Position numbers and translations under genes: made by a program
NCBI RefSeq assembly: GCF_035645195.1
Contig: NZ_DASQNA010000041.1
Location: 1-64,000 of the forward strand
Direction: 5' to 3'
Origin: Paenibacillus sp.
Lineage (GTDB): Bacteria > Bacillota > Bacilli > Paenibacillales > YIM-B00363
Length of the DNA stretch: 64,000 nucleotides
The notes under the pieces: model-generated
The model's database searches: none
What the model saw: the letters and a program-made list of their open reading frames with translations, nothing else
Told to the model about the DNA's origin: nothing
Part shown: piece after piece, positions 27,280 to 36,222 of the stretch
Layout of the letters: each line of letters begins with the position of its first letter
Numbering within the stretch: the first letter of the stretch is position 1

Positions 27280-28533
27280 GTGGACGCTTCCCTAATCACC
27301 ATCGAAGAGATATTGATCGCGCACACCCGCATGAAGGACCAAGTCGTGGAGACGCCGCTGCAGCGCAACGCGGTGCTCTCCCAACGTTTCGAGTGCAACG
27401 TGTACTTGAAGCGCGAAGACCTGCAGGTCGTGCGATCGTTTAAAATTCGCGGCGCCTACAACTTCATTCGCGGGCTGCCGGAGGACGTCGCCGCCCGCGG
27501 CGTCGTCTGCGCGAGCGCCGGCAACCACGCGCAGGGCGTCGCATATTCGTGCAGCGCGCTCGGCATTCCCGGCGCGATCTTCATGCCGGCGACGACGCCG
27601 AAGCAAAAAATATCGCAGGTCGAACGGTTCGGCGGCGGCCAAGTGATGATCCGCCTCGTCGGCGACACGTTCGACGACGCGCTGGCGGAAGCGAACCGGT
27701 ACGCGGCGGAGAGGAATATGACGTTCGTCCACCCGTTCGATCATCCGGCGATCATCGCCGGGCAGGGCACCGTCGCCGCCGAAATTCTCGGCGCCGCGAC
27801 GGAGCCGATCGATTACTTGTTCGTCGGCGTCGGCGGCGGCGGACTCGCCGCGGGCGTCGCGTCGTACGTGAAACGGCTCAGCCCTTCGACGCGCATCGTC
27901 GGCGTCGAAGCGGCCGGAGCCCCGACGATGCGGACGGCGTTCGACCGCGGCGAGATCGTGTCGCTCGAGGAGATCGACCGGTTCGTCGACGGCGCCGCCG
28001 TCAAGCGGGCGGGCGAGCTGACGTACGACATTTGCCGCCGTCTGCTCGACGATATGATCGTGGTGCCCGAAGGCAAGGTGTGCACGACGATTCTGGAGCT
28101 GTACAACGAGAACGCGATCGTCGTCGAGCCGGCCGGCGCCCTGCCGGTGTCCGCGCTGGATGCGTTCCGGGACGACATTCGCGGCAAGACGGTCGTGTGC
28201 GTCATCAGCGGCGGGAACAACGACATCGAGCGGATGCAGGAAATTAAAGAGCGGTCGCTGTTGTACGAAGGGCTGAAGCATTACTTCGTCGTCAATTTCC
28301 CGCAGCGCGCCGGCGCTCTTCGGGAGTTCCTCGACGGCGTGCTCGGTCCCGACGACGACATCACGCGATTCGAGTATACGAAGAAAAGCAGCAAGGAGAA
28401 CGGGCCCGCGCTCGTCGGCATCGAGCTGAAATCGCCGGCCGATTACGAGCCGCTGATCGCCCGTATGCGGGATAAGGGCATCTCGTTCATCGCGCTGAAG
28501 GACCATCCGGATTTGTTCCAGCTGCTCGTTTGA
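27280..28533 (+). CDS. ilvA: Threonine ammonia-lyase (threonine dehydratase)
   Basis: A 417-residue PLP enzyme that deaminates threonine to 2-oxobutyrate, the first step of isoleucine synthesis. The PLP lysine is in LQVVRSFKIRGAYN (about residues 47-60), SAGNHAQGVAYS and the glycine loop VGVGGGGLAAG are canonical. The C-terminal 80 residues form an ACT-like regulatory domain with the Bacillus-type ending. The start is a GTG with a weak GTAGGTG site. No other ilv genes are adjacent. Confidence 0.92.
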   Translation: MDASLITIEEILIAHTRMKDQVVETPLQRNAVLSQRFECNVYLKREDLQVVRSFKIRGAYNFIRGLPEDVAARGVVCASAGNHAQGVAYSCSALGIPGAIFMPATTPKQKISQVERFGGGQVMIRLVGDTFDDALAEANRYAAERNMTFVHPFDHPAIIAGQGTVAAEILGAATEPIDYLFVGVGGGGLAAGVASYVKRLSPSTRIVGVEAAGAPTMRTAFDRGEIVSLEEIDRFVDGAAVKRAGELTYDICRRLLDDMIVVPEGKVCTTILELYNENAIVVEPAGALPVSALDAFRDDIRGKTVVCVISGGNNDIERMQEIKERSLLYEGLKHYFVVNFPQRAGALREFLDGVLGPDDDITRFEYTKKSSKENGPALVGIELKSPADYEPLIARMRDKGISFIALKDHPDLFQLLV

Positions 28534-28627
28534 CGAAAAAACACAAAAAACGGGAAACTTTTCCACCTGTCGACTCGTCTGTGTTATGGGATGCATGTCC
28601 TAAAAGATGGGTCGGGAGGAAGAAAGG

Positions 28628-30076
28628 TTGAAACGGATTTGGAGGCGGAAAGCCGGCGCCGCGGCGTCCTTGGCGCTGGCGGTATTGACGGCGTGCTCGT
28701 TCGGGAGCGAAACGGAGGAAACATCGGCGGAACCGGCGGTCATCAAAGCGATGTACTGGGACGAATCGGCATTTTACCAGCATTTCGGCAACTTGTTTTT
28801 GCTGCAGCATCCGAACGTCGAGCTCGAAGTCGTGTCGACGCAGTCCATTTACCAGCAGGGGCAAGATCCGATTAAAGGGTTGAAGGAGCTGGTCGCGAAG
28901 GAGCAGCCGGATGTACTGCTGTTGAACGATTACAACTTCGGCTCCTTCCGGGAAGACGGGCTGCTGTACGAGCTCGACGCGCTGGTCGCACAGGACGAGG
29001 AGTGGCTGGAAGGCATCCTGCCCGCGGCGATCGACCATTTGCGCTCGTTGGGCGACGGCAAGCTGTACGGTCTCGCGCCGAGTTTTTCGAGCCAAGCGCT
29101 GTTTTACAACAAGAAGCTGTTCGAGCAGCACGGCGTACCGCTGCCGACGGACGGCATGACGTGGGACGAGCTGGTCGCGCTCGCCGAACGGTTTCCGACG
29201 GACGGCGGCGACAGCGAGCGGGTATACGGCCTGGATGCGTTCCGCGGAAATGCGAGCATCTGGAACATGTTTCAATTCGGCTCCGCGGAAGGGTTGATCT
29301 ATCTCGATCCGGACTCGAAGAAGATTACCCTTCATACCGATTCCTGGAAGCAGGTCGCGGAACGGGTAAAGCGCATCGCGACGTCGGAGGCCGTGTTCAA
29401 GCAGGATTCGGAAAATCCGGATTTCGGCGGCTCTTACGAGGAGTTTTTGCGGCGCGATCTGTTTTTGACGGGCCGCATCGCGATGCGGCCTGATTATGCG
29501 TACTATGTCAACCAGTTGAAGGAAGCGGCCCAGCGGTTGGAAGAAGCCAAAGAGCTCGATTGGGACGTCGTGACGGTGCCCGCGGCCCCGAACGCGCCGA
29601 ACGGTTCGACATCGTTCCAACTGCAGGACATTTTCGCGATCAATGCTCAATCGACGAACGTCGAGGCCGCGTGGGAATTCGTTAAATTCATCCATTCCGA
29701 CGATTTCGCAAGGGTGACTGCGCGCGCGCCCGTGTTCGGCGGACTGCCGACGCGCGTCGAGTACATCCGCAACGACGAGGGCAAAAACTTGGAGGCGTTC
29801 TACGCCTCCGCGTCGAGTTCGTCGGCGTCGAGTGGGCCGGATTTCAGCCGCCTCCCGGAATCGTTCAACGCGAACTTCTTCGGGATCGCGGATAAGCACT
29901 GGCAGGCGTTCCTGCAAGACGAGCTGACGGCTGAGGAGATGCTTAGCCAAATTGAAACCGAGGCCCAGGCGATGCTGGACCAAGCGGTCGAGCAAGAGGC
30001 CGCCGGGGAACCAGGGTCGGGGGATGCCGCGGATGAAGCTCCGCAGGAGGCGGCGCAAGAGGCGGTACAAGAGTAA
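28628..30076 (+). CDS. Extracellular solute-binding lipoprotein (family 1)
   Basis: A 482-residue lipoprotein with a short signal, lipobox LTAC (about residue 23) and a sugar-type binding fold: KAMYWDESAFY near the start, QALFYNKKLFEQHGVP, and RDLFLTGRIAMRPDYAYY. The TTG at 28628 has GGGAGGAAG eight bases upstream and was preferred to ATG 28607. The last 35 residues are rich in Glu and Ala, a disordered tail unusual for this family. No permease or ATPase gene is adjacent, so the substrate is unknown. Confidence 0.8.
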   Translation: MKRIWRRKAGAAASLALAVLTACSFGSETEETSAEPAVIKAMYWDESAFYQHFGNLFLLQHPNVELEVVSTQSIYQQGQDPIKGLKELVAKEQPDVLLLNDYNFGSFREDGLLYELDALVAQDEEWLEGILPAAIDHLRSLGDGKLYGLAPSFSSQALFYNKKLFEQHGVPLPTDGMTWDELVALAERFPTDGGDSERVYGLDAFRGNASIWNMFQFGSAEGLIYLDPDSKKITLHTDSWKQVAERVKRIATSEAVFKQDSENPDFGGSYEEFLRRDLFLTGRIAMRPDYAYYVNQLKEAAQRLEEAKELDWDVVTVPAAPNAPNGSTSFQLQDIFAINAQSTNVEAAWEFVKFIHSDDFARVTARAPVFGGLPTRVEYIRNDEGKNLEAFYASASSSSASSGPDFSRLPESFNANFFGIADKHWQAFLQDELTAEEMLSQIETEAQAMLDQAVEQEAAGEPGSGDAADEAPQEAAQEAVQE

Positions 30077-30108
30077 GGCGTTGGATGAGTTTGAAATGTA
30101 ACGGTAAT

Positions 30109-30142
30109 GACCGTCTCCGGAACCGGGGGCGGTCGTTTTTTT
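30109..30142 (+). terminator. Rho-independent terminator
   Basis: GACCGTCTCCGG and the GGGGGCGGTC arm pair around AACC, followed by seven T. It ends the solute-binding protein transcript. Confidence 0.85.
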
Positions 30143-30159
30143 GTGTAGTGCTGGAGTTT

Positions 30160-30403
30160 GGCGGAGCGGCGGTCGGTCGGGTGCTGTGTTATGGGTAGTG
30201 GGGTGGCAAAAGAAGCGAGGGGTGTTCCCATAACAAGCAACCAAGCTACCCATAATGGGCCGAAGGCGGGAGCGGCGGGCGGTCGGGTGCTGTGTTATGG
30301 GTAGTGGGGTAGCAAAAGAAGCGAGGGGTGTTCCCATAACTAATAACCAAGCTACCCAAAATGGGCCGAAGGCGGGAGCGGCGGGCGGTTGGGTGCTGTG
30401 TTA
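30160..30403. repeat. 106-bp tandem repeat, about 2.3 copies
   Basis: The motif GTGCTGTGTT occurs at 30181, 30287 and (as GTGCTGTGTTA) 30393, an exact period of 106. Copies 1 and 2 differ at a few sites only; copy 3 is cut after about 40 bases. Each unit carries GTTATGGG with CCCATAAC and GGGTAGC with GCTACCC, in the order A-B-A'-B', so the arms interleave and could form a pseudoknot or two alternative hairpins. No gene is supported inside. The remaining gap 30404-30600 holds the next gene's promoter. Confidence 0.85.
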
Positions 30404-30524
30404 AGGAGTTCTGTCGGATGATCCCCGGCGGCCAAAGTTTCGGGCGAAAAGGTCCGGCACCGGAAAACGAGGGACAAACAATACATGGAGTAGTTTGTGA
30501 ATTCCCCAACAAAATAAAAATATG

Positions 30525-30553
30525 TTGCAGAATAACGACATTCCAGCTAAAAT
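30525..30553 (+). promoter_or_regulatory. Sigma-A promoter of the DUF2087 gene
   Basis: TTGCAG (30525-30530), a 17-base spacer and TAAAAT (30548-30553) lie in a markedly AT-rich stretch, 48 bases before the start codon. The AT content is unlike the flanking genes. Confidence 0.65.
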
Positions 30554-30600
30554 GTTGGTATAAGAACAAACGATATTCGAAAATGTTGGGATGTGACCAC

Positions 30601-31380
30601 ATGGATGTGGATCAACTGTTTTGGGAAGCGTCGCCGGAGGAGCTAAAGCGGGGCTACAAGACGGAGGCGGCGGAGAACGTGCATCGGTGCCTGGTGTGCG
30701 GCGAAACGGCGGAGTTCGGTCGCGTCTATCCGGTCGGCGATCGCTGGTACGACGCCGAGGCGTACATGCGCTCGCATATCGCGGCGGCGCACGAGTCGAT
30801 GTTTACTTACTTGCTCGGTCTCGATAAGAAATGGACGGGGCTGACGGACGCGCAGCGGGAGGTGCTGCGCATGTTTTACGATGGCCGGAGCGACGCGGAC
30901 ATCGCCAGCGCGACCGGCAGCAAGCCGGCGACGGTGCGGTACCACCGGTTCCATCTGCGCGAGAAGGAAAAGCAGGCGAAGGTGTTCGTCGCGCTGATGG
31001 CGCTGCTCGACGAAAAGCCGAAGCCGAGTGCAGGGCGGGAATTCGTCCCGATTCATCGGACGGCGACCGCCGTCGACGAACGGTACGCGATGACGGAAGC
31101 GGAAAACGAAAAGGTGCTTGCGACGTACTTCCCGTACGGCTTAGAAGGCCCGCTGCGCGAGTTTCCGTCGAAGGAGAAGCGGAAAATCGCGGTGCTGCGC
31201 CACCTGCTGAAGCGCTTCGAGCGCAATCGGACGTACACGGAGAAGGAAGTGAACGCGGTGCTGAAGGAAGCGTACGCGGACTTCGTAACGCTGCGCAGGT
31301 ATATGATCGAGTACGGCTTCATGGATCGCCGGGACGACGGCAGCGAATATTGGGTGAAGGGAGAAGTCGTACATGGATAA
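30601..31380 (+). CDS. DUF2087 protein with helix-turn-helix region
   Basis: A 259-residue protein. The first part has a CLVCGE zinc-finger-like segment with later histidines (SHIAAAHE), then a LuxR-like helix-turn-helix (LTDAQREVLRMFYDG, followed by SDADIASATGSKPATVRYH, about residues 78-116), and the C-terminal DUF2087 domain with FPSKEKRKIAVLRHLLKRF and YTEKEVNAVLKEAY. It is probably a DNA-binding regulator; the ligand is unknown. It overlaps the GIY-YIG gene by eight bases. The ATG at 30601 has only a weak ribosome site; a longer frame back to 30361 crosses the repeat and promoter and was rejected. Confidence 0.78.
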   Translation: MDVDQLFWEASPEELKRGYKTEAAENVHRCLVCGETAEFGRVYPVGDRWYDAEAYMRSHIAAAHESMFTYLLGLDKKWTGLTDAQREVLRMFYDGRSDADIASATGSKPATVRYHRFHLREKEKQAKVFVALMALLDEKPKPSAGREFVPIHRTATAVDERYAMTEAENEKVLATYFPYGLEGPLREFPSKEKRKIAVLRHLLKRFERNRTYTEKEVNAVLKEAYADFVTLRRYMIEYGFMDRRDDGSEYWVKGEVVHG

Positions 31381-35888: not shown

Positions 35889-36180
35889 AAAAAAGGACAC
35901 AGCGGAAGGCGTGACCGGCGCTGCCGCCGATCTGTGCCTTCGCTCTGTCCCTTGTACCTGAGAGTTGCCCCGCCTGAGCCGCTTACGCCCGGCGAGTTTC
36001 TCCTTTGGTGATCCGACGCGTTCGCGGCATCTAACCGCCGCGCCGAATGCTCTCCAGAGTCGCGTCCCGCACAGGTCCTTTTGCCTGAGAGATTCTCCCG
36101 AAACCGGGGTTACTCCTTCGGCGTCTCCGCTGGCCGCCCGCCCGATACACAGGCGGATCCGATCCCGCGGCGATCTCTCC
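35889..36180 (-). promoter_or_regulatory. Tandem glycine riboswitch with terminator
   Basis: On the minus strand aptamer 1 (about 36180-36049) shows GGAGAGA, GCCGAAGGAGTAA, TCTCAGGCAAAAGGACC and CTGGAGAGC; aptamer 2 (about 36048-35945) shows CACCAAAGGAGAAACTC and CTCTCAGGTACAAGGGACAG. The 3' arm of aptamer 2 (GGACAGAGCGAAGGC) also pairs with GCCTTCCGCTGTGTCC (35910-35895) to form a terminator followed by TTTTTT (35894-35889). This is the known layout of glycine ON switches: bound glycine prevents the terminator and turns on gcvT-gcvPA-gcvPB. Confidence 0.95.
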
Positions 36181-36222
36181 CTATACGATCATTCGCATAT
36201 ATTCGATTGGGTGCCGTATACT

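Follow-up and report, generated by a model that had tools for sequence, protein, structure and literature searches.

A species-specific, mostly palindromic tandem repeat family with a 106-bp unit between the genes of a Paenibacillus genome

The array and its neighbours

The stretch of DNA analysed here, hereafter the window, comprises 64,000 nucleotides of a Paenibacillus sp. genome (contig NZ_DASQNA010000041.1 of assembly GCF_035645195.1). A tandem array lies between two plus-strand genes, one encoding an extracellular solute-binding protein (SBP) and the other a DUF2087 protein with a LuxR-type HTH (Table 1). The array is located downstream of a terminator-like site, found by a pattern scan that returned one site against 0.7 expected in shuffles, so that this site is weak evidence by itself. 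The direct repeat AAAATGTTGGnAT, present at 30549-30568 and 30580-30599 in the gap before the DUF2087 gene, is a possible operator. Further along, a glycine riboswitch (RF00504, 58.4 bits, Rfam) occupies positions 36063-36192 on the minus strand, followed by minus-strand genes that appear to be glycine cleavage genes.

The tandem repeat described in the original prediction proved real in two comparisons. Tandem Repeats Finder (TRF) delimited it with a period of 106, 94% matches and no indels, and the pairwise comparison of the copies at 30163-30268 and 30269-30374 gave an identity of 94%. On the left the array opens with 25 of the 37 bp of a spacer; on the right it contains a complete spacer and stops after the first few bases of another unit. 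GTTATGGG starts at 30188 and 30294, CCCATAAC at 30227 and 30333, and GCTACCC at 30245 and 30351; the predicted interleaved order of complementary arms, A-B-A'-B', is correct at this locus. The arms themselves held in one copy each: GGGTAGC is exact in copy 2 (30307) but reads GGGTGGC in copy 1 (30201), and CTACCCAT is exact in copy 1 (30246) but not in copy 2. The second core differs in L2/M3 (ATAACTA ATAACC) and in flank3 (AAAAT). The 11-mer TGTGTTATGGG occurs at 30185, 30291 and, as had been stated, at 28580; however, the stretch at 28579-28590 has only the 12-mer CTGTGTTATGGG in common with the array and does not match the 69-column family model presented below.

Four open frames enter the array, three on the minus strand (28487-30337, 29800-30240 and 30246-30602) and the DUF2087 frame when read from its far-upstream start (30361-31380). 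None of them was judged to account for the repeat. Rfam gave no match in the window array at gathering thresholds, and none in the arrays of six array loci at E<=5.

Table 1. Features of the window locus (window positions) and, in the last rows, arrays of a second hairpin class (positions in the named loci)
Feature	Position	Strand	Basis or remark
SBP gene, PF01547	28607..30076	+	Pfam
Intrinsic terminator-like site after SBP gene	30106..30142	+	stem 30106-30137, then T run; pattern scan
106-bp tandem array	30163..30403	+	two full cores, 2.3 units; TRF
Partial spacer, left of core 1	30163..30187	+	25 bp
Core 1	30188..30256	+	69 bp; gap-free grid alignment to other cores of the genome
Core 1, flank5	30188..30192	+	
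Core 1, M1	30193..30207	+	
Core 1, L1	30208..30214	+	
Core 1, M2	30215..30229	+	
Core 1, L2	30230..30236	+	
Core 1, M3	30237..30251	+	
Core 1, flank3	30252..30256	+	
Spacer 1	30257..30293	+	37 bp, GC-rich, locus-specific
Core 2	30294..30362	+	69 bp, grid as core 1; gap-free grid alignment
Spacer 2, right of core 2	30363..30399	+	37 bp; repeat fades a few bases on
DUF2087 gene, LuxR-type HTH	30601..31380	+	Pfam; start uncertain (frame open from 30361)
51-52-bp array, G000	L187 15668-15811		
51-52-bp array, G000	L194 1838-2422		
51-52-bp array, G000	L194 17951-18427		
51-52-bp array, G000	L229 6653-6952		
51-52-bp array, G001	L238 18254-18891		
51-52-bp array, G001	L242 93-514		
51-52-bp array, G003	L244 13979-14737		

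One grid in two species

The window belongs to a genome of 5.95 Mb in 55 contigs (G000). The BLASTN search of this genome with one unit, proposed along with the original prediction, returned further copies in arrays spaced by about 106 bp. A family model of 69 columns, built from 16 cores, gave 116 matches on both strands at E<=1, and a weight-matrix scan of the loci placed 70 cores at 25 loci. With one more locus, whose two cores with rearranged arms were added by hand, the genome holds 72 cores at 26 loci, in one to six copies per locus. Because the unit geometry recurs at 25 other loci, the window repeat is far beyond chance, and the suggestion of a new repeat family, left without an Rfam match, is borne out. 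That the repeat is only a local duplication, as foreseen if neither further copies nor covariation were found, is ruled out since copies exist across the genome.

Neighbouring cores lie at distances of 106 (38 cases), 105 (5), 107 (2) and 117 bp (1), so that 45 of 46 fall within 105-107 bp. Each core follows the grid 5 + M1 15 + L1 7 + M2 15 + L2 7 + M3 15 + 5, with an occasional core one base short (for example the second L035 core), and its modules resemble oriented copies of one theme, GGGWAGGNNGTAYGC with an A-rich joint. The spacer after the core measures 36-38 bp in all but one of the 46 cases, the exception being 48 bp.

Beyond this genome, a search with the family model in 59 others, among them five congeneric ones, yielded no convincing match. 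Marginal matches in G007, G031 and G037 (E 0.003-0.008) were inspected and are not arrays, and a single match in the congener G004 (E=0.07) lies inside a coding stretch and is a chance match. One 25-letter core pattern had no exact match in genome contigs, a set from which records near the window's genome may have been left out, nor in viral contigs. A phage or plasmid origin was rejected, as the array had no BLASTN match among 50,697 phage and 72,556 plasmid records. A literature search of titles and abstract openings retrieved no description of the 106-bp family. We conclude that it constitutes a new species-specific, mostly palindromic tandem repeat family.

A family of equal geometry was found through the conserved neighbourhood. 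The gene order IlvA-SBP-gap-DUF2087 is kept (tblastn) in Paenibacillus sp. MAG RH52_bin.008 (L092), P. thermotolerans (L094) and P. alkalitolerans (L123). In L092 the gap contains GGGGAGCAGTTCCTC AATTATC GGGGCGGAGTGCCCT AAAAATT GAGGAGAGGCGCTCC, which is the window family's grid in other letters, preceded at 106 bp by what appears by eye to be a decayed copy. Searches with this core at E<=1 gave 41 matches in G004 but no match in G000, G001, G002, G003 or G005. A weight-matrix scan of G004 identified 44 cores at 16 loci, two of which (L296 and L297), each located at the start of a contig, may belong to a single array. Their neighbour distances are 105 (14), 106 (11), 107 and 111 bp, with one gap of 971 bp, hence 26 of 28 within 105-107 bp; a few cores, such as the third of L284, are one base short in M1. 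Compared in register, the two families are 38% identical, against 31% with letters shuffled within segments, which makes a remote common origin possible. When 15 G004 loci were compared with the 20 kb around the 26 G000 arrays, the window's gap was the one orthologous position with an array in both species; one further G004 locus lies less than 2 kb from an orthologous array position, and the rest have no such neighbour. This sister family, very different in sequence and equal in geometry, suggests that arrangement counts for more than the sequence itself.

The spacers, GC-rich and about 37 bp long, are 88% identical within G000 arrays (26 pairs). Spacers from different loci of this genome have an identity of 38.7%, compared with 34.0% in shuffles; among the 325 locus pairs, 25 are similar at p<0.01, where about 3 would be expected, with identities of up to 76%. 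Spacer identity climbs with core identity, from 0.35-0.37 below a core identity of 0.75 to 0.45-0.48 above it. Part of the between-locus excess thus looks like common ancestry, and this similarity and its climb make the spacer a part of the unit, one that would diverge much faster than the core, or be replaced, while keeping its length. The L074-L076 pair combines close cores (0.86) with unrelated spacers (0.27). Among the ten G004 arrays with at least two cores, the six single-core loci being left out of this comparison, eight have one common spacer (score per base 0.61-0.97) and the other two have another (0.97). The spacer is therefore common to several loci along with the core, clearly in G004 and partially in G000.

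Some stretches near the arrays resemble pieces of the unit. Short palindromic remnants on contig C16 (L033), GTTATGGGCAAACATAAC at 173908-173925 and GTTATGGGCCTATAAC at 174413-174428, have the appearance of cores that lost their middle part. Next to core arrays at L080 (1258-1529), L074 (1822-1981) and L031 (2165-2352) there are GC-rich minisatellites (31-46 bp) that resemble spacers in which only a few bases of the core are left. The spread of a GC-rich host minisatellite was rejected, since the stretch beside L080 recurs nowhere else in the genome (E<=1e-5).

Pairing, placement and unit lengths

At most loci M3 is reversed relative to M1, which yields a hairpin. The fold z-scores of first cores against dinucleotide shuffles have a median of -5.0 over the 26 loci; the window's first core scores -2.8, and five loci are weaker than -2.5 (L033 -0.6, L037 -1.1, L088 -1.4, L087 -1.9 and L083 -2.3). 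In L083, L087 and L088 all three modules point forward, and an arm pair matching at 5 or more of 6 positions occurs in no core of L083 or L088 and in one of six L087 cores. Other arrangements exist: a three-way junction in the first L032 core, pairing between M2 and M3 in L036, and pairing between M1 and M2 in L090. A simple hairpin potential is real in most copies. The original prediction had gone further, proposing a structured RNA with a pseudoknot or a switch between two hairpins. Its interleaved A' arm (CCCATAAC across M2/L2) is exact at only one of 26 loci, that of the window itself, so such a fold is not a family trait and was rejected.

Among first cores of G000, covariation of the arms between loci reached p=0.01 for h2-h5 but p=0.06 for h1-h6 (uncorrected, 15 arm pairs), and is thus weak within this species. 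It is absent at locus level in G004, where arms pair within a core no better than between loci (h1-h6 4.32 versus 4.72, h2-h5 4.35 versus 4.76). Between species, both arm sides have changed together: h2-h5 pairing is 4.26 and 4.35 of 6 within the two species versus 2.49 and 2.41 across them, L1-L2 pairing 3.54 and 4.78 of 7 versus 2.12 and 1.87, the outer flanks 3.11 and 3.17 of 5 versus 1.53 and 1.19, and h1-h6 4.88 and 4.32 versus 3.76 and 3.86. Pairing is kept within each species.

According to our own codon-model gene caller, all 26 G000 arrays lie between genes at an overlap tolerance of 40 nt; the DUF2087 call begins 2 nt within core 2 of the window, and at C6:21204 a gene overlaps the array by 32 nt. 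At 22 loci the array runs in the direction of its 5' neighbour gene. Cores are on the leading strand at 23 of the 26 loci (20-kb GC skew; two-sided p=9e-5), with L176 (skew near zero), L178 and L190 as exceptions. Gene direction and GC skew are correlated here, so their effects on array strand are inseparable. The strand bias is weak in G004, where the core strand, taken from the BLAST match, is leading at 11 of 16 loci (p=0.21); the G004 core being nearly palindromic, the weight-matrix scan assigns the plus strand to all 16.

Intergenic tandem arrays of the genus have units of 30, 51-53, 82-83, 105-106, 114-115, 125-127 and 211 bp, and further lengths of 31-46 and 117-118 bp adjoin or lie within arrays of the 106-bp family. 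In an exploratory, post hoc test on 18 intergenic tandem families, grouped by eye and several of them possibly related, unit lengths cluster at multiples of 10.5 bp (Rayleigh R=0.84). R falls to 0.59 when the seven lengths next to or within arrays are included, and 35, 37 and 46 bp are off these multiples. Ranked by strength, the A/T periods of the 106-bp unit begin, after 106 itself, with 21.2 bp, and 10.6 comes fifth, behind 4.24 and 7.07. On this exploratory test, the unit lengths point to helical phasing.

Other hairpin arrays were encountered in the genus. A second intergenic class has a unit of 51-52 bp, made of a hairpin of about 21 bp and a 30-bp spacer (Table 1). Its 51-bp type (TAGTCGGAG-NAA-NTCCGACTA) has matches in five of six genus genomes, with only two weak ones in G003, and its TAGGCGCA type occurs mostly in G000. 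The 125/127-bp arrays at L202 16386-16689 (G000) and L240 18362-18925 (G001) contain two A/T-rich palindromes, GCACAAATTTTGTGC and CTCAAAATTTGACA, about 30 bp apart. A 105-bp hairpin array of 4.4 copies at L252 3367-3832 (G003) is, by eye, off the 15/7/15/7/15 grid, and the distant Bacillales member Salipaludibacillus daqingensis has a 53/106-bp hairpin array (L141 550-1009). For six loci with other hairpin classes, Rfam matches at the gathering threshold were limited to a cobalamin riboswitch and a 16S fragment, both lying in other parts of the loci.

Known repeats, rival readings and meaning

REP/BIME elements are characterized as GTAG/CGTC-tagged palindromes of 20-40 bp with flanking segments of variable length (PMC3733652). 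The family is like them in being palindromic, extragenic, mostly downstream of genes and clustered in tandem with flanking DNA, and some REP/BIME families are species-specific as well (PMC3733652); the placement of the 26 arrays agrees with this description. Unlike those elements, it has a 106-bp unit with a 69-bp three-module core, a near-fixed spacer length, no constant GTAG tag and no RAYT profile match in six genus genomes. Among first cores, those of 8 of the 26 loci contain GTAG in their first half-module (seven as GGGTAG, L090 as GTGTAG), and 15 read GGGAAG there; in six of the seven GGGTAG loci this half-module pairs with h6 at 5 or 6 of 6 positions, so a constant unpaired GTAG tag, as in REP/BIME elements, is lacking. 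The Y1_Tnp (RAYT/IS200) profile matched none of the six genus genomes at E<=0.001, one of which is 81% complete, whereas 5 of 14 control genomes were positive, and a RAYT-driven REP was rejected. The family thus resembles REP/BIME clusters in place and habit but departs from them in the defining features of tag, size and RAYT.

Three other systems were compared. Like bcr1 of Bacillus cereus, a bacterial MITE (PMC3733652), the family is short, non-coding and intergenic with inverted-repeat ends, but it forms tandem arrays of fixed period, and no Y1_Tnp transposase or clean target-site duplication was found. Flanking 37-bp copies exist, yet spacers recur across G004 loci, and no empty site of matching sequence was found. 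CRISPR arrays are regular alternations of a palindromic segment and a spacer. The alternation of a palindromic segment with a spacer of about 37 bp recalls them (PMC3733652), but the spacers here are not unique, given their within-array identity, and the repeated core is 69 bp long, so a CRISPR array was rejected. The intrastrand triplex motif TMECO (PMC4666352) is likewise intergenic, with a G-rich direct repeat and a C-rich complement in one strand; the present lengths and loops (15/7/15/7/15) and tandem 106-bp arrays are different, and the likeness is one of sequence layout.

We favour an explanation at the DNA level, with a presumed reader or mover. Our best reading, a tentative one, places the array in a non-coding, satellite-like and mostly palindromic family that broadly resembles REP/BIME clusters and preserves its geometry through sequence turnover. 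Units of 106 bp would have spread as wholes, core (69 bp) and spacer (37 bp) together, into intergenic gaps, usually past the 3' end of a gene, and would have grown and been homogenised locally by unequal exchange or slippage between units. The kept geometry, three 15-bp modules at 22-bp steps with A/T-rich joints of 5-7 bp every 21 bp or so, would make the unit about ten helical turns. A DNA-binding protein or structure-specific recombinase reading helically phased palindromic DNA could then fix the lengths while the sequence turns over species by species. In its favour stand the near-constant period and common grid of two families with low sequence identity, the spacers recurring along with cores, the arm pairing kept within each species, the intergenic placement with its leading-strand bias in G000 and, in the exploratory test, the clustering of unit lengths. 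Against it weigh the cores that lack a strong arm pair (all of L083 and L088, five of six in L087), the weak or, in G004, absent covariation at locus level, the weak strand bias in G004, the post hoc nature of the length test and the low rank of 10.6 bp among the A/T periods. The fixed length could also simply be inherited, and the similar cores with unrelated spacers at L074-L076 are not explained by whole-unit inheritance.

A more committed form is somewhat doubtful. It holds that a helically phased palindromic lattice, with its 22-bp step and 106-bp unit, is itself inherited, selected and read by a protein assembly, that the letters are replaced completely and in concert in each species, and that the 51/52-bp and 125/127-bp arrays belong to the same class of quantised lengths.

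A possible alternative, if not a probable one, is a purely selfish, function-free palindromic repeat of REP or MITE type, mobilised by an enzyme, whose 106-bp unit was fixed by descent from a copied multi-unit array. The species-restricted expansion, the spacers common to several G004 loci, and the truncated core remnants and core-less minisatellites flanking some arrays agree with it, and the leading-strand bias in G000 would fit insertion into single-stranded DNA at forks. Such an origin sits poorly with spacers that are near-random in identity between most loci but show almost no length drift, with the equal grid and length in two species of different sequence, and with the lack of any Y1_Tnp match in the six genus genomes.

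It is unlikely that the array is a structured RNA or 3'-UTR element (a hairpin, a switch or a processed small RNA) transcribed from the upstream gene. This would account for the hairpin potential above shuffles in most copies, for the usual position downstream of and co-directional with a gene, and for arms that pair better within than across species. However, the window array follows a terminator-like site and has no Rfam match, some loci are unable to form the hairpin, a spacer of fixed length and free sequence would have no obvious reason, and covariation locus by locus is weak.

Still less probable is insertion of the core by an integrase with duplication of a fixed 37-bp target, comparable to the repeat duplication of CRISPR integration, which would make the spacer the target duplication. 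Cores do stand between direct spacer copies: the 37-bp stretches on either side of the core resemble each other at four of the five loci with one core (p=0.003 each), the fifth being L036 (p=0.41). In addition, G000 spacers are mostly locus-specific. Against this, flanking copies in G000 are often partial or missing on one side, and spacer recurrence across loci, at eight of the ten G004 arrays compared and in 25 G000 locus pairs, shows that the spacer moves with the core, on which ground a fixed target duplication was rejected.

Orienting sequences for chromosome translocases are very improbable and were rejected: the modules carry GGGNAGGG, which we take to be a KOPS/SRS-like motif, on the core strand in 35 of 72 G000 cores (16 of 26 loci) and on either strand in 22 of 44 G004 cores (6 of 16 loci), and cores favour the leading strand, but about half of the cores lack the octamer and its leading bias outside arrays, 69 to 10 in 38 regions of 20 kb, is unremarkable for its make-up, ranking 25th of 56 octamers of the same make-up.

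Intergenic repeats of bacteria are usually recognised by their sequence. Here the module, joint and period lengths are kept in two congeners whose repeats are so different in sequence that a sequence model of one family misses the other. Should the satellite-like reading hold and a protein read the spacing, bacteria would have in these arrays an equivalent of satellite DNA biology, and the persistence of palindromic repeats at gene ends would become a testable question. If they are only a mobile palindrome, a mover that is not of the RAYT kind, as judged by the profile used, would be at work in the genus.
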